From a virus: a stretch of DNA of 20,855 nucleotides. The stretch spans positions 1 to 20,855 of IMG/VR virus record IMGVR_UViG_3300005737_000054; one strand, written 5' to 3'. Shown one piece after another: positions 2,807 through 19,406 of this stretch (position 1 is its first letter; each line of letters starts with the position of its first letter). The notes beneath the pieces were generated by a model. That model ran no database searches. It had not been told where the DNA came from and saw nothing but the letters and a program-made list of their open reading frames with translations. Position numbers and translations under genes: made by a program.

Positions 2807-4039
2807 ATGGCCGAGTTTGCTGAAGCGCATGTGACAACGGTTGGGTCAATGCGTACCATGAATAACACCTCAGGCCTCGCACTTTTGGCGCCGATGCAAC
2901 AAAGCTGGCAATCTGCGACAACGAAGATTGTAATGACCGATATTAACGACATCCGCGCGCCCGTACTCGCGATGAACAACCTTCCCAACGTCGATGGCGC
3001 ATACACAATGCATTACGACGAGACCAATAACATCCGGCGCTTGCACTTGACGCCCAACGGGTTGAACATCCGAACGCTGCAGTGCTTCGTACTCGGGGGG
3101 GTTGCTCACCGCGGTACCCCGCCATCGCTCTGTTTCGAGGAGCTTAGGAGCGTGCTTCGGCTTCAGAAATCGACACAGGAGCTTAAGCTGGAGCACCTCG
3201 GAAAGGGGGATTTCCTCAATCTTATAAATTCTCAAAAGGTTGAGGCCATGCTCGACTGGCTGCACACCCAAAACCTATTCGTACACTTCCAGGTCCTCGA
3301 CCCACTTTATTGGTCAATCGTCGATTTCGTCGATTCCATCATCATCGAAGACGGCAGCGCTGAGTGCATTTCGATGGCTACCAGATTCAAGAATGACCTT
3401 TACGCGATCCTGCGCGACGATGTGGACATAACCGCAGACTTGCTTGAACGGTATAGCTATCCAGATGTTGGGCCTGATCGGCGCGTGGCGTTCATTGCAG
3501 AAGTGCGCGACCTACTGGAGACCCGTCATTCTCGGCTACCCCATTTCAACTATCAGATGCTCAAAGGTTTGCTTCAAATCGCTACGAGGCTCGACGCACT
3601 TCCCTACCTGGAAGACGAGACACCCAACGTTCTCATCGATGGCTTTGGTGTCTTTTACCTACAGCGGCTCGCACTCTTCAAAAATGCCACGCACGTCCTG
3701 GACATCGAGAGGAAGATCGAAACCTACCTCAGCGACCTCGATCTGCGGGATGGCCCAGTTCCCCTATGCAATTTCTCATTTGTCAACTCGAAGGACCACC
3801 CTTGGGTGCAGGTTTCCGACGCAATAGCTGGCCTTCTTGGCAAATTCTTTAGTTTTGTGAACCAAACGTCGGTGAACGACCTTAGCAATGCTCGCGCTGA
3901 ATTTACCGAACGCCAGAAGCGCGGATTCGAAACACTGGGCCTCTTAATCGATCGATCGATAGAAGAGTGCCCGGCTTTCGTCAATTATGTAGTGTCACTG
4001 GAGGATCAACAACGACGGGCGAGTGTGCTCGGATTCTAG
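2807..4039 (+). CDS. DUF3800 family protein
   Basis: The frame codes for up to 410 residues. DUF3800 proteins have an RNase H-like fold with an N-terminal acidic motif and a C-terminal VQxxDxIAG motif. Here these are HYDETNN (about 69-75), LIDGF (276-280) and HPWVQVSDAIAG (331-342). The first 42-55 residues look like low-conservation extension: M43 (2933) or M56 (2972) put the start closer to the acidic motif and may be the true initiation sites, while at 2807 an AGGGA lies only 2 bp from the ATG. DUF3800 proteins occur beside or fused to retron RTs and in other defence loci. A 220-bp gap and higher GC than the RT gene leave open whether this is part of the retron or a separate acquisition. 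Nuclease activity is suspected for the family but cannot be confirmed here. Confidence 0.75.
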   Translation: MAEFAEAHVTTVGSMRTMNNTSGLALLAPMQQSWQSATTKIVMTDINDIRAPVLAMNNLPNVDGAYTMHYDETNNIRRLHLTPNGLNIRTLQCFVLGGVAHRGTPPSLCFEELRSVLRLQKSTQELKLEHLGKGDFLNLINSQKVEAMLDWLHTQNLFVHFQVLDPLYWSIVDFVDSIIIEDGSAECISMATRFKNDLYAILRDDVDITADLLERYSYPDVGPDRRVAFIAEVRDLLETRHSRLPHFNYQMLKGLLQIATRLDALPYLEDETPNVLIDGFGVFYLQRLALFKNATHVLDIERKIETYLSDLDLRDGPVPLCNFSFVNSKDHPWVQVSDAIAGLLGKFFSFVNQTSVNDLSNARAEFTERQKRGFETLGLLIDRSIEECPAFVNYVVSLEDQQRRASVLGF

Positions 4040-9688: not shown

Positions 9689-10221
9689 CAGGCCCCTCCG
9701 GACGTCTTCTCGTCCGACCGCCGCCAGACGTAGACCCCGACCACACCGGCCCAGGTTCCAAGCACCGTGCCCAAAAACCCATAGGCGACGGACGCATTGG
9801 CAATGGTCTGAACGTCGCCCTTCAGCATGAGAATGCAGAAGGACAAAACCAGAGCCAGACAGCTGAGCGCAAACAGGATGCCGTTCAGCGGTCGCCAGAT
9901 CCGGGTCAGCATCGATGGACTGGCTCGGTCGCCTGCCATCAGCTGCTGATAGGATTGCGTGGCCTCGGAAGCTGCCCGGGCAATGGGGCCGAGATCTTGC
10001 TCGACCGCCTGAAACGCCTCAGACACGACCTCGGGAGCGCTTTCATACCTCGCTGCAATTGCCTCCTCCGTCGGCTCGACCCCAAGCGTGTCGGCCACCT
10101 GCCGGATCGCGGCCTCTGCGACATCAGCTGCAATCGTTCCAGCTCGTCCTCCATGCTGTCGCAGGATTTTAGAAAGGGCACTCGCCCCCACATCAAGAGC
10201 AATCACGGCCAATGGAGTCAC
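9688..10221 (-). CDS. Holin, 3TM GTA type
   Basis: The 177-residue protein has a soluble helical N-terminal half and two clear membrane helices near 112-133 (LNGILFALSCLALVLSF core) and 144-166 (VAYGFLGTVLGTWAGVVGVYV), followed by a basic tail. This matches the holin family of three-TM proteins known from alphaproteobacterial gene transfer agents; only two helices are obvious by eye, and the hydrophobic N-terminus (LAVIALDVGASALSKIL) may be the third. It would permeabilise the inner membrane and release or activate the lysozyme. The start is GTG at 10221, overlapping the lysozyme stop as GTGA. Confidence 0.75.
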   Translation of the reverse strand: MTPLAVIALDVGASALSKILRQHGGRAGTIAADVAEAAIRQVADTLGVEPTEEAIAARYESAPEVVSEAFQAVEQDLGPIARAASEATQSYQQLMAGDRASPSMLTRIWRPLNGILFALSCLALVLSFCILMLKGDVQTIANASVAYGFLGTVLGTWAGVVGVYVWRRSDEKTSGGA

Positions 10222-11198
10222 AGTGACCTCCCAAGAGATTTGACTGCAATTGCAAGCTCATCCCGGTACTGCCAGGCGAAGTACCCAAGGACTGCAACGG
10301 TCAGGGCAAGCCCCCCATAGAGGATAACATCACCGTAGCCCGAGGCATCAGCGGCTTTATCAGCCGCCCCCCCGCCTGCAACGGCCCCGCCCCCGGCTCC
10401 GGTTGTCTGGACCTTGGTCTTTAGATCGACCACTCGCTGGATCTGAGCAAGGGTTGCCCGGCCGAGGATACCGTCATTGGACAGCTGCGGATGCTGGCTC
10501 TGGAAGATGAGAACCGCCTGCCGAACCGCCAGAGCATCACCCCGGTGGCCGGGTGTCAGAACCTTCAGCTGCTCCAGCCAAATCAGGCCCTGTAGATGGT
10601 CGTCGGGACGCAATCGCCAGGTTGGCAGCGATCGGGAAATATCGCGCGTGGTCATGGAGGCAGGCGCCTGGACCCAGTCAGGCCAGGAATTGCGCTCCAG
10701 AATGGCTGCGCCTTCCTTGCGCCGGCGCACCAGACCTGGGAGCTTCCGGCCTTTCGATGTCTGGGCGGTAACACGGTATTTGGCAGCCGCGCCCTTGATA
10801 TCTCCGGCAAGCAATAGACGGAACCAGGACCACTTCAGAGCACCGGCTCCGCAATTGTAAGCCATATCGATCGCGGCAGAAGCGCCGTGCAGGGAAACCT
10901 TGCTGGTGGAGCTTTTTAAGGCAGCGATGACCGGCGGTGCATAATCCTCGTCAATCAGCTTGCCCAGCAGCATGATCGCATCGCTCTCGGTGATCACATC
11001 GCCAGCGCGCATCTTGCGGCGATACCTGGCCATCCACCAGTCGCGGAAGATCTTTGAGCCCCAGGTAAATCCAAATCCGATCGTCGGCGTTCCGGTTGGA
11101 TCCCGGTACCAACGCAGGACAGCACCTTCGTTGCCCCCGGTCCAGGGAATAAGGCGCGGATCATAAAATGAAGATTTGAGATCAGAAGTCACATCCAT
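10218..11198 (-). CDS. GH24 phage lysozyme with PG-binding domain and C-terminal TM
   Basis: This 326-residue endolysin cleaves peptidoglycan glycan strands. Residues E24, D33 and T39 (in NEGAVLRWYRD and PTGTPTIGFG) repeat exactly the E11/D20/T26 spacing of T4 lysozyme, so the GH24 active site is intact. A peptidoglycan-binding domain follows (about 205-257, DGILGRATLAQIQ), then a Gly/Ala-rich linker (268-286) and a single membrane helix (290-309, VILYGGLALTVAVLGYFAW). There is no N-terminal signal peptide, so the enzyme is likely to be tethered by its tail until the holin acts. The start at 11198 is well supported by AGGAGA a few bases upstream. It is the first gene after the Mor-like regulator and heads the late-type cluster. 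Confidence 0.9.
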   Translation of the reverse strand: MDVTSDLKSSFYDPRLIPWTGGNEGAVLRWYRDPTGTPTIGFGFTWGSKIFRDWWMARYRRKMRAGDVITESDAIMLLGKLIDEDYAPPVIAALKSSTSKVSLHGASAAIDMAYNCGAGALKWSWFRLLLAGDIKGAAAKYRVTAQTSKGRKLPGLVRRRKEGAAILERNSWPDWVQAPASMTTRDISRSLPTWRLRPDDHLQGLIWLEQLKVLTPGHRGDALAVRQAVLIFQSQHPQLSNDGILGRATLAQIQRVVDLKTKVQTTGAGGGAVAGGGAADKAADASGYGDVILYGGLALTVAVLGYFAWQYRDELAIAVKSLGRSL

Positions 11199-11302
11199 GT
11201 CTCCTGGCTTTGAGCAAAAGCGTGAAGTCGGAAACAGGATGGCGTTTATCGGGAGGCAGGCTCACCCACGCCGGTACACTGGTGTTGCGTTGGGGCGTAG
11301 CC
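11199..11302 (-). promoter_or_regulatory. Candidate middle/late promoter region before the lysozyme
   Basis: This 104-bp gap is one of the few in the leftward operon and lies exactly between the Mor-like activator and the lysozyme gene. In Mu, Mor and C act on promoters placed downstream of their own genes, so this is the natural place for an activated promoter. I see no strong -35/-10 pair, as would be expected for an activator-dependent promoter, and cannot define the operator by eye. The lysozyme ribosome site AGGAGA lies at its left end. Confidence 0.4.
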
Positions 11303-11647
11303 TTAAAACAAGGAGAGCTGGTTCTTCTCAGAGGAACCTGACAACCAGCGGCGGACCGTCGTCTGGTCCACGTGGAGCTGGCGGGCAATCGCCGCCTTTG
11401 AAAGGCCCTTGCTCATGAGCACTTCGGCAATCCATGGCTTGGGAATTGGAACCCGCACGTAGCCATGGCCGAGCGCCTTGGCAAGGATGGCCGCTTTTTC
11501 GGCACCGGTCAATTCAAGCACCATCGAGCTGCGTGGCCGATCGCTGAAGTAGATCTCCGATCCGCCAAATGCCAGGAAGAAATCCACCGCAAGCTCTTGC
11601 CCGAGGACCTCGATATAGGTGGCTATATGGGCGGGACATCTGTTCAT
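11303..11647 (-). CDS. Mor-like middle transcription activator
   Basis: The protein has 114 residues. The N-terminal half, IATYIEVLGQELAVDFFLAFGGSEIYF (about 8-34), matches the dimerisation region of Mor/C activators of Mu (the GG-x-x-I/L-Y segment). The C-terminal half carries a classic HTH (SKAAIARQLHVDQTTVRRWL, 83-102). It would switch on the lysis and head genes that follow. It starts with ATG at 11647, overlapping the GemA stop. Unusually, it ends in QLSLF, a match to the consensus bacterial beta-clamp-binding pentapeptide. Mor of Mu is slightly longer, and I am not aware of a clamp motif there. Confidence 0.8.
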   Translation of the reverse strand: MNRCPAHIATYIEVLGQELAVDFFLAFGGSEIYFSDRPRSSMVLELTGAEKAAILAKALGHGYVRVPIPKPWIAEVLMSKGLSKAAIARQLHVDQTTVRRWLSGSSEKNQLSLF

Positions 11648-12273
11648 TTGATGGAGGTCCGCAGCAATCGGCCAAGGTCGTTCTGGAGATCAATCCACTC
11701 ACTGCCTGAAAGACTTCCAGGCATGTCCTTGCCAGTGCGCTCTATGAGATAGCTGGAAAGGTTTGCGGTTGGTGCGCGGTCCCGCTTGACGAGCTCTGAC
11801 CAGGCATGCAGGCAGACCTGAAACCGGAAATCATTGTAGGCAGGCGGCAGTCTTTGATCCTTGCGGAATAGCCCGTCATTTCTCGTCGATCGGCGGATCC
11901 AGATCTTCAGCGCGTCAATCGCCTTTTCAGCATCTTCGCCATGCCGCAGGAACCGGTGATGATCAAGCCCGGTCTGGCGCTTCAGGAAGGCCATCATCGC
12001 CTTGTCTGAGCGGTTCTTGATTACACCCAGATTATAGCCGGCGATCCAGAGAGCCTGAAGCTTGCGGGCGTAGGGACCCGCGGCCCGCGTCGTTGTCGCT
12101 TCACTCGTTTTTGGAAGAAGGCGGTCCAGCGCGCTGATAACTTTAAGATGTTCCCCAGCAGAAAGACCTTTGGCAGAGCGCGCACCGGCCTCACGCTCCA
12201 GTAAATCACGATAGCTGTCATCATCGAGCCCGGCCTGTCTTTTCAGCACATGGATTTTGGCAAGAAGCTTCAT
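11644..12273 (-). CDS. GemA-like protein (DUF1018, Mu gp16)
   Basis: The family is recognised from LLAKIHVLKRQAGLDDDSYRDLLE near the N-terminus, KLQALWIAGYNLGVI (about 70-85) and the FLKRQTGLDHHRFL block (95-110). Mu GemA changes host gene expression and DNA supercoiling during development. I prefer the ATG at 12273, with AAGGA about 9 bases upstream; a TTG at 12282 adds three residues but has no spacing to that site. The C-terminal half (DFRFQVCLHAWSELVKRD onward) extends past the typical DUF1018 domain and may be specific to this phage group. It is coupled to the Mor-like gene by ATGA. Confidence 0.85.
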   Translation of the reverse strand: MKLLAKIHVLKRQAGLDDDSYRDLLEREAGARSAKGLSAGEHLKVISALDRLLPKTSEATTTRAAGPYARKLQALWIAGYNLGVIKNRSDKAMMAFLKRQTGLDHHRFLRHGEDAEKAIDALKIWIRRSTRNDGLFRKDQRLPPAYNDFRFQVCLHAWSELVKRDRAPTANLSSYLIERTGKDMPGSLSGSEWIDLQNDLGRLLRTSIK

Positions 12274-12278
12274 GACAC

Positions 12279-12557
12279 TCAATCCTTGTAGGGACGCCGA
12301 TTGGGCAAACTGCCGCCAACAGCCCCTGCATCTCCCAAGGCTTTGATCTGACGCAGTGACGTTTCCGGTTTCTGGCCTGCCTCCAGTTCGAGCCTGAGCA
12401 GCTCATTGGTGGCGTCCTGAAGAGCCCTCGTCAGGCCGGACAAGCGATGCAGGCGGTATTTCCGTTTTTCAGCCTCGCGCAACAGCCGGTCTCGGCGTTC
12501 GCGCAAAGCGTTTTTGTCTCCCAACTCGAACCGATCCGGGTTGGCGAGCCGGGGCAT
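12279..12557 (-). CDS. Small coiled-coil protein of unknown function
   Basis: The 92-residue protein has a highly charged helical stretch (about 13-65, from KNALRERRDRLLREAEKRK to NELLRLELEAG) that suggests a coiled coil, followed by a disordered basic tail. No family is recognised. It is embedded in the early operon: its ATG is one base after the stop of the upstream gene, and its own stop overlaps the alternative GemA start. Such position-conserved small genes are common in the early regions of Mu-like phages. Confidence 0.6.
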   Translation of the reverse strand: MPRLANPDRFELGDKNALRERRDRLLREAEKRKYRLHRLSGLTRALQDATNELLRLELEAGQKPETSLRQIKALGDAGAVGGSLPNRRPYKD

Positions 12558-12558
12558 G

Positions 12559-12786
12559 TCACGCGTCCTGATTTCTGGCGTCGCGTGCGTCCATTCGGTC
12601 GATCAGCGCCAGAACCTCATCCGTCCGGCCTTCGGCCACCAAGGCGGCAGGTTCCTGATTTTCGAGCTCCGGATGAGGCAGATTGAACCACTCCATTGCC
12701 TTCTCCGGGCTGAAGTGCTGCTCGAGGCGTTGTCCCACCGCCCGAACATGGTTCCAAAAGAGCGATCCGTCGTCATGTTCAGTCAT
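12559..12786 (-). CDS. Xre/MbcA/ParS toxin-binding-domain protein (DUF2384-like)
   Basis: At 75 residues the protein consists almost only of the pattern AMEWFNLPHPELENQEPAALVAEGRTDEVLALIDRMDA (about 30-68), which matches the C-terminal domain of Xre/MbcA/ParS antitoxins (W-x-x-x-P-x-P-x-L and P-x-x-L-V/L plus the final helix). The DNA-binding part of such antitoxins is missing, and no RES-domain toxin lies nearby. It may act as a stand-alone decoy or anti-toxin carried by the phage; this is inference. It starts 33 bp after the DUF3164 stop. Confidence 0.6.
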   Translation of the reverse strand: MTEHDDGSLFWNHVRAVGQRLEQHFSPEKAMEWFNLPHPELENQEPAALVAEGRTDEVLALIDRMDARDARNQDA

Positions 12787-14481: not shown

Positions 14482-15125
14482 TCCTCTGCCACAGGCCGGC
14501 CCATGATCTCCTTGCGATTGACGTCATAGACCATCTTGCTGCGCAGGATCTTCGGTGCCTTTGGCCCGGTGTTCATGGAGGGCTTCAAGCGCCAGATGCC
14601 CGGTGTCCGGCCCTTGCCTCGCCGCAGAGCCTGCAAATAGCCCGCGCTCTCCAGATGCACCACGTAGGTTTGAACGGTCTCGCGTGAGATAAGGACTTCA
14701 TCGGTGCCAGCGGCGATCGTGAGTTCCTTCGTCTCGAAAGTCTTCAAGGCGCGAATGGCGTTCCAGATCTGCTCCTGTCCGCGGCCCTGTTTGCCGATCG
14801 ATCCGTCACGGTTGATGATCGGCGTGGCCGTCGGGCGCCTCAAAAGCCGATAAATTCTCTGCCGAAAGGTCTTCTGGTTCGTTGGTCCCTGCCCCGCCGT
14901 CGAAACCTGTTTTGTTTCGACAACCTCAAGGAAACCGGCCCGCTGGAGGCGGCGCAAGAACTCGCCGATGGCTTCGCCGTCCCGGTCGTTGCAGACCATG
15001 TCCACGTCATGAAAGGTGAACAGCTGCCCGGACTTGCCGAGATCGCGAATCGCGCTCCAGTAGTGATCATGCCCCCGGTAGACCGGCGTTCCGGACGAGA
15101 CCCGAAGCTGCAGTTGGATCGACAT
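14469..15125 (-). CDS. Protein with two predicted winged-helix domains
   Basis: Two similar helical-wing segments are visible in 218 residues: HYWSAIRDLGKSGQLFTFHDV with EAIGEFLRRLQRAGFLEVV (about 21-66), and QIWNAIRALKTFETKELTIAA with SRETVQTYVVHLESAGYLQAL (about 119-165), each ending in a G-[FY]-L wing. This suggests an internal duplication of a winged helix. It begins with TGATG overlap on the MuB-like stop. In Mu this place is taken by small early genes such as kil or gam, but no similarity to Gam is seen. It is probably a DNA-binding early regulator. Confidence 0.6.
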   Translation of the reverse strand: MSIQLQLRVSSGTPVYRGHDHYWSAIRDLGKSGQLFTFHDVDMVCNDRDGEAIGEFLRRLQRAGFLEVVETKQVSTAGQGPTNQKTFRQRIYRLLRRPTATPIINRDGSIGKQGRGQEQIWNAIRALKTFETKELTIAAGTDEVLISRETVQTYVVHLESAGYLQALRRGKGRTPGIWRLKPSMNTGPKAPKILRSKMVYDVNRKEIMGRPVAEECVA

Positions 15126-15940
15126 CAGGTACCCCTCCTTGTTCTGCGGGGCGGCTCGCCCGTATAGAACCAGCCGGCATCAAAACTGCGGGCATCGAAG
15201 GCCTGCTGGCGCGTATTGCGTGCCTGCTCGCCCATCTTGTTGAGGTTCACCACGATGCGCCTTGCGCGCCCCTCAGCCTTCTCGACCAGGAGATCCATCA
15301 GGTCATCGCTCAACGTGAGATTCGGGCAGAAGAGGTCAGCGAGAGCGCGCGCATCATCACGGTCGCAAGGCTCGGCCGGAACCCAATCCAGCACCCGGTT
15401 GTGAACGCGCTCCACTTTCATGAGCTTGCCGGGCAACTGTTCTTCGCCGATCAGCAGAACCGGCACCTGGGAATGTTCCTGGATCTCGCGCACCAGTTCC
15501 AGCATGCCCTTGTCGGCCAGCTTGTCTGCCTCATCGATGATGAGCGGGCGCTCGAAATCATCGCCGAGGGCCATGATCGCTTCGGTGGTCAGATCCGCGA
15601 TCGTCGAGCGCTGCGGCCTGACGTCTGCCTCGGCCAAGAGGTTCTCAAGGAACTTCTTGCGGGTCCAGCTGTCGCCCACTTCTATGCGCAAGGCCCGACG
15701 CTTGTTGGTGGTATAGATCGAGGCATAGGTCTTGCCATACCCGGAATACCCGTGGAACACCCCAATGCCGGGCAGATGCGGTCCCCTGTGGATCAGCGTC
15801 TCTACCAGTGCCAGGAACCGTGCCACATTCTTGAGCGCTGCAAGCCCGCCCGAATTGACAGATGTCTCTCTGTCCCCCATCGCTAACTCCATCCCAGGTT
15901 TGACTACGAGACCTTGAGGATTGTTCTTTCCAAGGCCCAT
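15125..15940 (-). CDS. B: MuB-like AAA ATPase, target-capture protein
   Basis: The 271-residue frame holds a AAA+ ATPase with Walker A GYSGYGKT (64-71), Walker B RPLIIDEADKLA (131-142) and a sensor-like segment VPVLLIGEEQLP (about 155-166). MuB coats target DNA, stimulates the transposase and gives target immunity. The gene directly follows the transposase, as in Mu. Initiation is uncertain: ATG 15940 has AAGGA immediately before it, while ATG 15880 (residue 21) has GGAG at an ideal 6-base distance. The N-terminal 20 residues are therefore doubtful. The C-terminal part (after 215) is the helical domain that binds DNA or MuA in the family. Confidence 0.9.
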   Translation of the reverse strand: MGLGKNNPQGLVVKPGMELAMGDRETSVNSGGLAALKNVARFLALVETLIHRGPHLPGIGVFHGYSGYGKTYASIYTTNKRRALRIEVGDSWTRKKFLENLLAEADVRPQRSTIADLTTEAIMALGDDFERPLIIDEADKLADKGMLELVREIQEHSQVPVLLIGEEQLPGKLMKVERVHNRVLDWVPAEPCDRDDARALADLFCPNLTLSDDLMDLLVEKAEGRARRIVVNLNKMGEQARNTRQQAFDARSFDAGWFYTGEPPRRTRRGT

Positions 15941-15953
15941 TCCTTGCCCCGAC

Positions 15954-18119
15954 TTACGCGGGCGATACGCCGTTTCTCAGCGGCTTCCGGTCCTCCCAAA
16001 TCAGCCGGTGAGCTCGATATTCCGGCCCTGCCTGATAGGCGGTCAGCCAGAGTGCATCATCATCGGAAAGGGCCTGTCCCTGTGCGAGGCGGGCCTCAAA
16101 CGCCAGGGCGCGCTTGAACCGGGCCTCCGGGGTTTTCATGGACGACAGTTTGTGAACAGGCGCCGGTGCTTTTCCTGCATCGGCTTTCAGGCTCTCCATC
16201 ATCTGCCGCTCAGCATCCGAGAGCGCCCGCGGTTCGGGGCGTTTCTTCACGTCCGCCGCAGCCAGGCTTTTGGGCGTGACATGGGGTTCGCGGCGCTGCG
16301 GGAAGGCCAGGACAGATGCTGATTGCGCATAGGCAGAGCGCTGCGCGTCCAGCACCGTGCGCGGTGTGATCTTGCGTTTTTCCTTGCGGATTTCGGCGAG
16401 TTTTTCGGTCTCATGCGCCTTCTGGAGGGCCTTGACCTGAGCTGCCACATGGACCGGATCGAGACCAGCCAGATCCGGGTTGACCGCTTCGCCCAGGTAA
16501 GTCTCGCCGTCTGGCTCGAACAGCCAGAGCCGGCCAAGGTCTGACGGATCATGTCGGCAAAGGACTTCTGCGCCCGGCATCACACCGCAGACCGGCAGAT
16601 AGTACTCGCGGTCCACCTTGACGCCTTGCTTGGTGACCTTTCGAAGACCGTCCTTGCCGGGGACCGGTGCCAGAAGAACATCAAGGCCTTCAGGGTCTTT
16701 GATCGCTCTGACATCGCCGGTCCAGCTGTTGGCGACCTGGAAGGGCGTCCTGCGCTTCAGGCTCTCATGCGGGCTATGCGCGTATTGTTCACGCGCCCAA
16801 CGGTCCGCCTCCGCCTGGAGGTCGCTAGCGGAGAGTTCCACCTGGAACATCTTGGCGTCGTCCGTGCCGAGGCGGTCGGAGAATTGCCGGCGCGCTTCAA
16901 TCACTTTCCGATCGGCGACCGAATGGCCGACAAAACCTGGAAGCGGCGCGCAGCAATCCCGCTGAAAGGTGCCGATGACACGCTCGACCGTGCCCTTTTG
17001 CTGCGGCGTATAGGGCGCAGAAAACTCCTGATCGATGCCGAGCGCGTCCAGGAGGCGGACCGTGGCGCGGGCAGCAAAGTCCGCTCCATTGTCGGTCTTG
17101 ATCAGCTCCGGAACGCCCCACTCAAGGAGGCACTTGCGGATGAGGAGCCCCACAGCTGACGCCCGTGCCGTGTCGGAGATCAGCAGCACGACCCGCCGGG
17201 AGTAGAGATCAACCGCCATATAGAGGTTCTTGCGGCCGTCCGTGGTCATGGCGTCCACCGGTGAAGCGTCGATTTCCCATTTCTGGTTCAGTCGTTCGAC
17301 CCGGTGCGCTCCCGTCATGGCGAACTGCACATTGCTGCGATAGGCATCCGGGTCTGTGATCTTCAAAAGCTCATTGCGATATTCGGATTTCCAGCCTTTA
17401 AGCGCGTTTTGAAACGTCCTCAAAGGCGGCATTGGCACCCGTTTTTGTCCCCGTGTCGTTGGCACCAGGATGGTCTCGCCAAACTCTGCAAGTGCCGTGT
17501 GCCGGATATGCTTGGCGCTCAGGAACTGGTTGGAGGCATGCACAGCCAGGCAGTAGTTCTTCAGACGCCCCCCTTCTGCCCGCTCCAGCACGCCCGTCCC
17601 CTTGCGTGCCTTGGAGGCATCCGAACCAAGCCGGTTGATGTCATGTCGCATCTGACGCCGCCAACGGGCCAGGGTACGGATCGATACGCGCTTGATCACG
17701 TCAGTGACCCATCCCGGAACAGGAACCTCACCGGCCAGATAGAGCTCGGAGAACAGATGATCGGACGCGGTCGCGCCCATCCCGCAGGTCTTGCGGAACC
17801 GCTCGGCCACTTTCAGGACAATCACCTTGGCATCCCGGGCCGTGCGTTCCGCGGCTGTGAGGCTGACATCGGTCTCGGTGAGGAAATCGCTTTGTTCGAT
17901 CCGGACAAAGGAGCCGGCATAGGCAAGACGTTGAGGCAGTGGCAGGAGGTCGATGTGAAACTCAAAGCCGCCGCCCCCTGCCCGGCCCTCGCGCTTGCGT
18001 GCCAGGGGCGTCTCGCCCCAGCGCTCGCGCTCTATGACCTTGTGGACACCCCGTTTGGTTCCGGGAAATCCGTCCAGGCAAAGATCGGCGAGTTCCTGAG
18101 CGGTTAGCCAGAGTTTCAT
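15954..18119 (-). CDS. A: MuA-like DDE transposase
   Basis: At 721 residues this protein catalyses phage integration and replicative transposition. Residues 1-70 match the N-terminal winged-helix (enhancer-binding) domain of MuA (LTAQELADLCLDGFPGTKRG). Helical end-binding domains follow (about 90-250). The catalytic core has D284 in WEIDASPVD, D343 in IKTDNGADF and E379 in KGTVERVIGTF, a complete DDE triad. The beta-barrel Mu_transpos_C domain follows (about 510-565, YYLPVCGVMPG, LWLFEPDGETYLGE), and the C-terminal basic/helical tail would contact MuB. The ATG at 18119 overlaps the preceding stop (ATGA). The protein appears intact, so transposition could still be possible if both ends are present. 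Confidence 0.95.
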   Translation of the reverse strand: MKLWLTAQELADLCLDGFPGTKRGVHKVIERERWGETPLARKREGRAGGGGFEFHIDLLPLPQRLAYAGSFVRIEQSDFLTETDVSLTAAERTARDAKVIVLKVAERFRKTCGMGATASDHLFSELYLAGEVPVPGWVTDVIKRVSIRTLARWRRQMRHDINRLGSDASKARKGTGVLERAEGGRLKNYCLAVHASNQFLSAKHIRHTALAEFGETILVPTTRGQKRVPMPPLRTFQNALKGWKSEYRNELLKITDPDAYRSNVQFAMTGAHRVERLNQKWEIDASPVDAMTTDGRKNLYMAVDLYSRRVVLLISDTARASAVGLLIRKCLLEWGVPELIKTDNGADFAARATVRLLDALGIDQEFSAPYTPQQKGTVERVIGTFQRDCCAPLPGFVGHSVADRKVIEARRQFSDRLGTDDAKMFQVELSASDLQAEADRWAREQYAHSPHESLKRRTPFQVANSWTGDVRAIKDPEGLDVLLAPVPGKDGLRKVTKQGVKVDREYYLPVCGVMPGAEVLCRHDPSDLGRLWLFEPDGETYLGEAVNPDLAGLDPVHVAAQVKALQKAHETEKLAEIRKEKRKITPRTVLDAQRSAYAQSASVLAFPQRREPHVTPKSLAAADVKKRPEPRALSDAERQMMESLKADAGKAPAPVHKLSSMKTPEARFKRALAFEARLAQGQALSDDDALWLTAYQAGPEYRAHRLIWEDRKPLRNGVSPA

Positions 18120-18574
18120 TTGGCGCTCCGGATCTGTGCCTGAAGGAACTTGGCCCTGCCCTCGATCTCACGCCGATGATCTTCAATCAGCGCCAGTTCG
18201 ATGACGTTCTCATAGCGCTTGGGAATGACGGCGAGCTCGAACTCGTCAGCCAGGAACCCGAGAAGCGCTGTCTGCCCGGTCGCCCGGACAAGAGCGACGA
18301 ACCGCTCCACCGTGATGTTATGATCGACCTTTGCCTCGGAGGCGTAGGCCTCCAGCATGGCAACCGAGACTGGCGCGGCGAGCTGTTCACTCATGAGACC
18401 GGCCACTGTCAGACGGTCTTTGCCGCAGTCCTTCAAGGCTTTGGCAACCGCTCGGCTGACCCGCGAGGACAGCCGCTTTCCAGGGATCGCTCCGGGCTCG
18501 AACCCCACGCTGACCCGCGGCGGCTTCCAGTCAGTGAACATGTCGATGGTATAGGGATCACGGGACTTACGCAT
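18116..18574 (-). CDS. Early protein between ParB-like gene and transposase
   Basis: The chosen ATG at 18574 (MRKSRDPYTIDMF) overlaps the ParB-like stop; an upstream ATG at 18604 would add ten poor residues. The resulting 152-residue protein is helical, with a possible HTH-like part at MSEQLAAPVSVAMLEAYASEAK followed by ITVERFVALVRATGQTALLGFLADEF. That order loosely resembles phage regulatory CII-type proteins, but the match is weak and I do not assign a family. Its tight coupling to both ParB-like and transposase genes suggests a function in early regulation or transposition. Confidence 0.6.
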   Translation of the reverse strand: MRKSRDPYTIDMFTDWKPPRVSVGFEPGAIPGKRLSSRVSRAVAKALKDCGKDRLTVAGLMSEQLAAPVSVAMLEAYASEAKVDHNITVERFVALVRATGQTALLGFLADEFELAVIPKRYENVIELALIEDHRREIEGRAKFLQAQIRSAK

Positions 18575-19406
18575 TGAACCACCCTTCCCGTCTTGCGAGA
18601 TCAATGATCTCGTCCTTGTGGTTTCGAAACAGAACCGTCCGGCTTGCCTTGGGGAGCTTGACCAGGCTGTCGGACACTGTGCGGAAGATCCTTTCCGCAG
18701 CCGTCAGCGGCTTCCGGCCATTGACGATCACCAGGGCATCGGCAACCGAAGCCGCCTTGGGAACCGGACCGACAAGGATGTCCAGAACCTTGGACTGGGT
18801 GTCCTCGTCCAGGTCCGAGAGGGCCTTGAGATCGGATTGTCTGGCGGCGAATGGCGTGCCCTTCAGCCGCTCGCGGGACGCCGGGACCAAACCTTCCCAG
18901 ATTTGGACCGCGAGCCGGACCGAGCGATCAGAAAGGCCGGTCGTTTCGGCAGCACTCTGGCAAAAGGCAAAGATTGCCACTTGCCTCTTTTGGCCGCCAA
19001 TGTGCTGATTGCCACGTCTCCCGCCATGCTTGGCAGCTGGATGCAGCCCCTCATAAATCCGCTTCATCTCATAGAAGGCTTCGCAGCGCTCCAGGGCGTT
19101 GAAATCCTTCCGCGCGATATTCTCAAGGATCTCATGGAGCCGCAGTTCATCCGCGACCTGCTCGCTCGTGGGGCTGAGGATCCGCGCGTCTATCTCTTTC
19201 CACTTCGCCAGCTTGGCAGCACACAGACGATGGGCGCCGGCAACAAGCGTGAACCGCTTGTCCATTGCAATGACATCGATCGGCGTCTTCTGTCCGGTTT
19301 CCAGAAACATGCCGGAAAGGCAGTCAGCCCAATCCCCATCAATCTCCCGAAGACGCCCTTCAGGAATATCGATCAGGGAAACTCTGATGGATTGATACGA
19401 CGTCAC
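18567..19406 (-). CDS. ParB-like nuclease-domain protein
   Basis: The 279-residue protein carries the ParB/sulfiredoxin N-terminal fold: LVAGAHRLCAAKLAKW (54-69) contains the GxHR box, and LHEILENIARKDFNALERCEAF (90-111) contains the ENIxRxD/N box. An HTH-like segment (SAAETTGLSDRSVRLAVQIW, about 151-170) follows, as in ParB. Box II GxHR is the CTP-binding site in true ParB. The C-terminus is a distinct helical domain. The start is GTG at 19406 with GAGGTGAT upstream. ParB-like genes next to transposases are seen in several alphaproteobacterial Mu-like phages; the role (segregation, DNA binding or nicking) is unknown. No canonical parS was seen. Confidence 0.8.
   Translation of the reverse strand: MTSYQSIRVSLIDIPEGRLREIDGDWADCLSGMFLETGQKTPIDVIAMDKRFTLVAGAHRLCAAKLAKWKEIDARILSPTSEQVADELRLHEILENIARKDFNALERCEAFYEMKRIYEGLHPAAKHGGRRGNQHIGGQKRQVAIFAFCQSAAETTGLSDRSVRLAVQIWEGLVPASRERLKGTPFAARQSDLKALSDLDEDTQSKVLDILVGPVPKAASVADALVIVNGRKPLTAAERIFRTVSDSLVKLPKASRTVLFRNHKDEIIDLARREGWFNA

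Follow-up and report, generated by a model that had tools for sequence, protein, structure and literature searches.

The putative late-gene activator of a Mu-like transposable phage ends in the pentapeptide QLSLF, which has the form of a β-clamp-binding motif. Retention of this tag in distant relatives, including both activators of phage Mu, suggests that these viruses tie the expression of their late genes to the copying of their DNA. The favoured interpretation, to which we assign a probability of about 0.6, is that QLSLF is a genuine motif for the host clamp DnaN on a flexible tail, which would concentrate the activator on replicating DNA and stimulate late transcription.

Organisation of the window and identity of the activator

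The DNA analysed, referred to here as the window, is 20,855 nt in length (IMG/VR record IMGVR_UViG_3300005737_000054, positions 1 to 20,855). Its minus strand is that of a Mu-like transposable phage, with MuA- and MuB-like genes, gemA, a gene for a small activator, a lysozyme gene and head genes. The relevant genes are:

15954 to 18119, minus strand: MuA-like transposase, with rve, Mu-transpos_C and HTH_Tnp_Mu_1 domains
15125 to 15940, minus strand: MuB-like AAA ATPase, with AAA_22 above the cut-off and TniB just under it
11644 to 12282, minus strand: gemA (PF06252, E 1.7e-27)
11303 to 11647, minus strand: Mor/C-like transcription activator of phrog_836 (ORF of 114 aa, E 1.7e-19)
10218 to 11198, minus strand: phage lysozyme (PF00959, E 4.5e-17)

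The presence of a MuA-like transposase implies replication by transposition. The start codon of the activator gene overlaps the stop codon of gemA (ATGA), and the order gemA, activator, lysozyme is shared with many relatives. The activator gene is the last early gene after gemA and lies upstream of the middle/late genes, as is the case for the Mor/C family. Its product is the probable activator of the late genes of the phage, and the lysozyme gene is the putative first gene of the late operon under its control.

The phrog_836 profile ('late transcriptional activator') aligned with the window protein through its last residue. This family is a sister to Mor/C of Mu (PF08765/phrog_532), and the protein differs from the latter in scoring to phrog_836 only; it gave no match to Pfam Mor above the curated cut-off, and an HTH was all that Pfam found. 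Weak Pfam Mor matches were obtained for 3 of its 16 close relatives (best E 0.025), and the Rhizobium phage RR1-B protein, also a member of phrog_836, exceeded the Pfam Mor cut-off with 30.7 bits. The phrog_836 profile matched both Mu Mor (E 1.2e-10) and Mu C (E 2.1e-11), and an hhalign comparison between the window family and the Mor/C alignment gave a probability of 95.9 and an E value of 5.3e-9, the alignment running through the tail. Hence, the label 'Mor-like' used in the preliminary description is right in substance, with phrog_836 rather than a direct Pfam Mor match providing the connection.

As in Mu, the gene for a small HTH activator is located between gemA and the lysis genes, a candidate dyad site lies upstream of the lysis gene, and the activator carries a clamp-like motif at its C-terminus. 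Unlike Mu, the phrog_836 phage loci inspected have one activator gene, immediately preceding the lysis gene, and no distinct gene annotated as C.

The AlphaFold2 model of the activator, built with 16 sequences, is of good confidence (pLDDT 85.7) and predicts an ordered body followed by a loose tail. A Foldseek search of the PDB with this model gave HTH-sized matches only, none of them significant, and did not recover the solved Mor. The features of the C-terminal part of the protein are:

11342 to 11398, minus strand: helix-turn-helix, residues 84-102 (AIARQLHVDQTTVRRWL), Pfam HTH_3 above the cut-off, with helices at residues 84-91 and 95-102 in the AlphaFold2 model
11306 to 11332, minus strand: C-terminal tail, residues 106-114, predicted to be disordered (AlphaFold2 pLDDT <50 for residues 106-113)
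11306 to 11320, minus strand: codons of QLSLF, the C-terminal pentapeptide (β-clamp-binding motif), identified from the sequence and conserved in homologues

The C-terminal motif and its conservation

The plus strand at 11303-11320 is ttaaaacaaggagagctg, and the minus strand reads CAG CTC TCC TTG TTT TAA, i.e. Q-L-S-L-F-stop. The activator thus ends SSEKNQLSLF followed by TAA, and the location of the pentapeptide at a free C-terminus, with its codons at exactly 11306-11320, is as originally described. The pattern taken for motifs of DnaN clients was Q-x-x-[LM]-[FL] or Q-x-x-[LM]-x-[FL], located in a loop or at a terminus that is accessible; QLSLF has the first of these forms and lies at such a terminus, in a tail with pLDDT <50. 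Among the 27 likely genes of the window, a canonical Q-x-x-[LM]-[FL] of this kind was found only in the activator and a retron-type reverse transcriptase (RT). The activator has one, whereas the MuA-like transposase and MuB of the same phage do not.

A C-terminal clamp motif is present in nearly all of about 20 phrog_836 relatives, which are ~31-66% identical to the window protein. Phage relatives with 31-44% identity in tblastn (33-45% in the MAFFT alignment) end in QMDLF-PA, QLSLF, QMRLF, QLKLPL or QFDLF-ENT, and the ends at further relative loci are QLSLF-DT, QLSFF-EV, QPSLF, QASLF, QMSLF, QLKLF-AD, QLDLF, QLDLL and QPNLPL-D. Relatives differ in the length of the linker that joins the HTH to the motif, while Q is invariant and L nearly so; thus, the tail behaves as a short linear motif. 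A close relative (IMGVR_UViG_2895340002_000002) has an activator that is 98% identical and also ends in QLSLF.

Published rules for β-clamp motifs specify Gln at position 1, tolerate variation at positions 2-3, and require Leu or Met at position 4 and Phe or Leu at position 5 or 6, both pentameric and hexameric forms being known (PMC11139829). These two forms interchange among the homologues, the hexameric ones including QLKLPL, QPNLPL, QLAMDF, QLSLDF, QLTLPL, QHSLDL and QMDLDL. Variable C-termini in close homologues had been put forward as the outcome that would speak against the motif. Such variability did not occur in the survey, in which the motif drifts within the β-clamp rules (PMC11139829). 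The reading of QLSLF as a clamp motif is strongly supported by its retention in relatives and by a switch between five and six residues like that of published motifs.

The end of Mu Mor is ...RQYQPSLL, with the motif QPSLL, and that of Mu C is ...RRHQPDLFSPETPK, with QPDLF. The possibility that the motif is peculiar to the window phage was rejected, as both Mu activators have one. Other Mor/C proteins, from Vibrio, Shewanella, Pasteurella, Pseudoalteromonas, Pseudomonas and Escherichia phages, end in QPELF, QPNLF, QRDLF, QRRLF, QPDLF, QGKLF, QGDLF, QFDMF, QMPLL and QGKLDL. Exceptions are QYSLD in a Klebsiella phage and EPDLF, which lacks the Gln, in an unclassified phage; among the Mor/C homologues, that of Microcystis phage Mae-JY22 has no clear QxxLF (SGQLF) and a Salmonella chromosomal homologue is without the motif.

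A second motif is frequent at the N-terminus of Mor/C proper, examples being MTEDLF in Mu Mor and MQHDLF in Mu C (locus L033), and QSELF, QDDLF or QLDLL (such motifs occur also at loci L064-L069 and L074). It is possibly a second clamp contact per monomer of the dimer. The DLF motif of the Mu proteins is absent from the window protein. One Mor homologue (L097, G701:C6) carries a tandem pair of clamp-like motifs, RRQGDMFDEQQPSLLER.

Background frequency and association with gemA

The frequency of such C-termini was assessed in the 264 proteins of the complete Mu-like phages Mu, StopSmel, RC1, martha and ThpS-P1. Each of the six Mor/C proteins has a pentapeptide motif within its last 14 residues, as does 1 of the 258 other proteins (Fisher p=1.6e-11; 1.9e-10 when hexapeptides are counted too).

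Pfam-Mor homologues were then collected from 398 Pseudomonadota genomes and divided by the presence of gemA within 4 kb. In the first 30 loci, most gemA-adjacent copies had the motif whereas the others lacked it. The rule was then fixed as a match to Q..[LM][FL] or Q..[LM].[FL] within the final 20 residues, with the remaining loci serving as the held-out set. In that set, the strict motif was found in 20 of 30 gemA-adjacent homologues as against 3 of 58 others (p=1.1e-9). For all 118 homologues, the figures are 35/48 and 3/70, respectively (p=8.6e-16), and the contrast persists when the homologues are clustered at identities of 70, 50 and 40% (p 9e-9, 2e-6 and 9e-4), with 11/14 gemA-adjacent and 3/18 other homologues having the motif at 40%. 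About half of the 13 gemA-adjacent homologues that lack the strict motif retain a degenerate xxLF or xxFxF, and the relaxed count is 42/48. Many homologues away from gemA are tailless, ending a few residues past the HTH. The motif is therefore largely restricted to gemA-bearing, Mu-like elements. The two non-gemA copies whose neighbourhoods were inspected adjoin repressor-like genes and may thus be early regulators of other phages. Two Mor homologues on the same contig (L110 and L118, G431:C31) lie <1 kb apart, one ending in QLSLF and the other tailless.

The contrast was weak in a survey of alphaproteobacterial phrog_836 proteins, where 8/18 gemA-adjacent copies and 1/11 others have the motif, a suggestive difference (p=0.10); this is in part because several gemA-adjacent copies have xxLF without the Gln. 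The tree of the homologues is poorly resolved, with only two independent pairs on supported branches, which affords little power; on the best tree, ~9.5 independent pairs agree with the association and 1.3 disagree (median p 0.02).

These counts bear on the possibility that QLSLF is a chance match, or that the C-terminus is purely structural and lacks a partner. Five-residue motifs do occur randomly, and the one instance among the 258 other phage proteins lies near a C-terminus. Set against this are conservation across variable linkers, the 6/6 versus 1/258 ratio and the held-out context test, and a structural role is at odds with the predicted disorder of the tail. A chance match is largely refuted by the survey and the background counts, and we regard this explanation as highly improbable.

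Candidate promoter downstream of the activator gene

Two elements were noted between the activator and lysozyme genes:

11263 to 11284, minus strand: candidate activator site, imperfect dyad CACCAGTGTACCGGCGTGGGTG, within a 58-nt block conserved in relatives
11235 to 11241, minus strand: candidate -10-like element CATCCTG, by analogy with Mu Pm

In the window alone, the palindrome 3' of the activator gene is weak and not significant; significance attaches only to the family-wide block, which is conserved in 19 relatives (Gibbs score 289, compared with 79-98 in shuffles) and has the consensus CACCC.CGCACC.GCG.GGATGA, a gap of ~20 nt and CA...TGG. The distance from the dyad centre to CATCCTG is about 35 nt, as it is at loci L009 and L017 (spacing determined by eye). 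In Mu Pm, the Mor dyad is centred at -43.5 (PMC4390567), and the ~35-nt spacing fits a comparable arrangement, with the activator bound at a dyad near -43 and the second element acting as a -10 element. By analogy, the block and its spacing support control of the lysozyme/head operon by the activator.

Possible role of the motif in late transcription

In the proposed mechanism, QLSLF would dock on host DnaN from a flexible tail that follows the DNA-binding HTH. Replicative transposition would leave clamps on the new, discontinuous phage DNA, and the activator, tethered by these clamps, would become locally enriched near the late (lysis/head) promoter. Middle and late transcription would in this way be biased towards, and timed by, phage replication, with the clamp probably acting as a booster or targeting device and not as a requirement. 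If so, there would be a concrete molecular reason for Mu middle/late expression to follow replication. Mu middle and late RNA is reportedly lower in replication-defective mutants, a point that carries no weight in the present argument; the primary papers on the replication dependence of Mu late transcription are Marrs and Howe 1990 and Stoddard and Howe 1989.

Mu C activates late promoters in vitro on linear DNA with RNA polymerase alone and no clamp (PMC4461284), and Mor activates Pm in vitro in a study that mentions no clamp (PMC4287176). The clamp is therefore not strictly needed, and a T4-like absolute requirement for it is unlikely for Mor/C. Transcription was stated to be normal in a replication-delayed Mu mutant in a source that does not name the genes measured (PMC10052514); if late genes were among them, this would argue against tight coupling.

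A tail that binds DnaN for a purpose other than transcription coupling would account for the same conservation, and is considered somewhat unlikely. The clamp might be sequestered from host replication and repair, or brought to transposition intermediates or promoter-proximal nicks, or might itself turn the activator off or mark it for turnover. Clamp use by TnsE and IS transposases (PMC5371812, PMC9690074) and the activation seen in vitro without a clamp (PMC4461284) are compatible with such roles. However, the motif is on a DNA-bound activator and missing from the transposase and MuB of the phage, and it is shared by Mu Mor and Mu C, two proteins whose common activity is promoter activation; a middle/late activator would also be an odd location for a bulk clamp inhibitor.

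Alternatively, the tail could be a conserved peptide for a partner such as an RNA polymerase surface or a protease adaptor, with a mere resemblance to a clamp motif. Contacts with RNA polymerase are established for Mor/C, since Mor needs the C-terminal domains of the α and σ subunits (PMC4287176) and C contacts β' (PMC4461284). Nevertheless, the variation among homologues stays close to what the clamp rules allow: position 1 is Gln, positions 2-3 are free, position 4 is Leu or Met, and Phe or Leu stands at position 5, or at position 6 where one residue is inserted. In addition, the Pfam-Mor homologues away from gemA are mostly tailless, yet would need RNA polymerase if they too are activators. 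A non-clamp partner is thus judged quite unlikely, and DnaN binding that stimulates late transcription is the preferred reading.

In the sources cited, clamp-activated transcription is exemplified by T4, in which gp33 and gp55 bind the clamp gp45 via C-terminal motifs and transcription of the late genes is coupled to DNA replication (PMC7892883, PMC2988020). Transcription factors with C-terminal clamp motifs are common to both systems. The T4 factors, a sigma and a co-activator, bind RNA polymerase and use a phage-encoded clamp, whereas the window protein is a sequence-specific HTH protein that, by analogy, would use the host β clamp. TnsE of Tn7 and IS transposases are, like the window protein, encoded by mobile elements, and binding to the host β clamp has been reported for them (PMC5371812, PMC9690074); they direct transposition to replicating DNA, a role different from the activation of transcription ascribed to the window protein. 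QLxLF/QLxLxL motifs, pentameric or hexameric, also occur on the terminal tails of Hda, Pol II, Pol IV and other DnaN clients (PMC11139829), which are replication and repair proteins, not promoter-specific activators.

We give roughly even odds to the wider proposal that Mor/C of transposable phages, Mu included, are host β-clamp-binding factors that read replication and direct middle/late transcription to fresh copies, forming a second, independently evolved clamp-coupled system. If Mor/C bind DnaN, the coupling of late transcription to replication would be widespread among transposable phages, achieved with the host clamp and ordinary HTH activators. A search of openly licensed papers found none connecting a sliding clamp with Mor or C, an absence that is no proof. 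In Mu, a classical system, the motifs of both activators are open to direct mutational tests.

Other features of the window

The phrog_2345 transcriptional regulator encoded at 18116-18604 (minus strand) has TIDMF close to its N-terminus, and StopSmel gp8 (L080:3700-4158), which resembles a homologue of this regulator, has QFDLF at residue 7. A 75-aa orphan Xre/MbcA/ParS C-terminal (toxin-binding) domain is encoded among the early genes at 12559-12786 (minus strand).

The plus strand carries retron type III-A defence genes at 263-2586, with PADLOC scores of 209 bits for the PRTase and 409 bits for the RT, and a weak match points to a possible winged-helix protein at 1079-1414 within the retron. 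The RT (1555-2586) has QLDLF at residue 13 (about 1591-1605), an N-terminal, possible clamp motif. The retron is adjoined by a gene for a 410-aa protein at 2807-4039 (plus strand), which matches the candidate defence family PDC-S51 with 344 bits.
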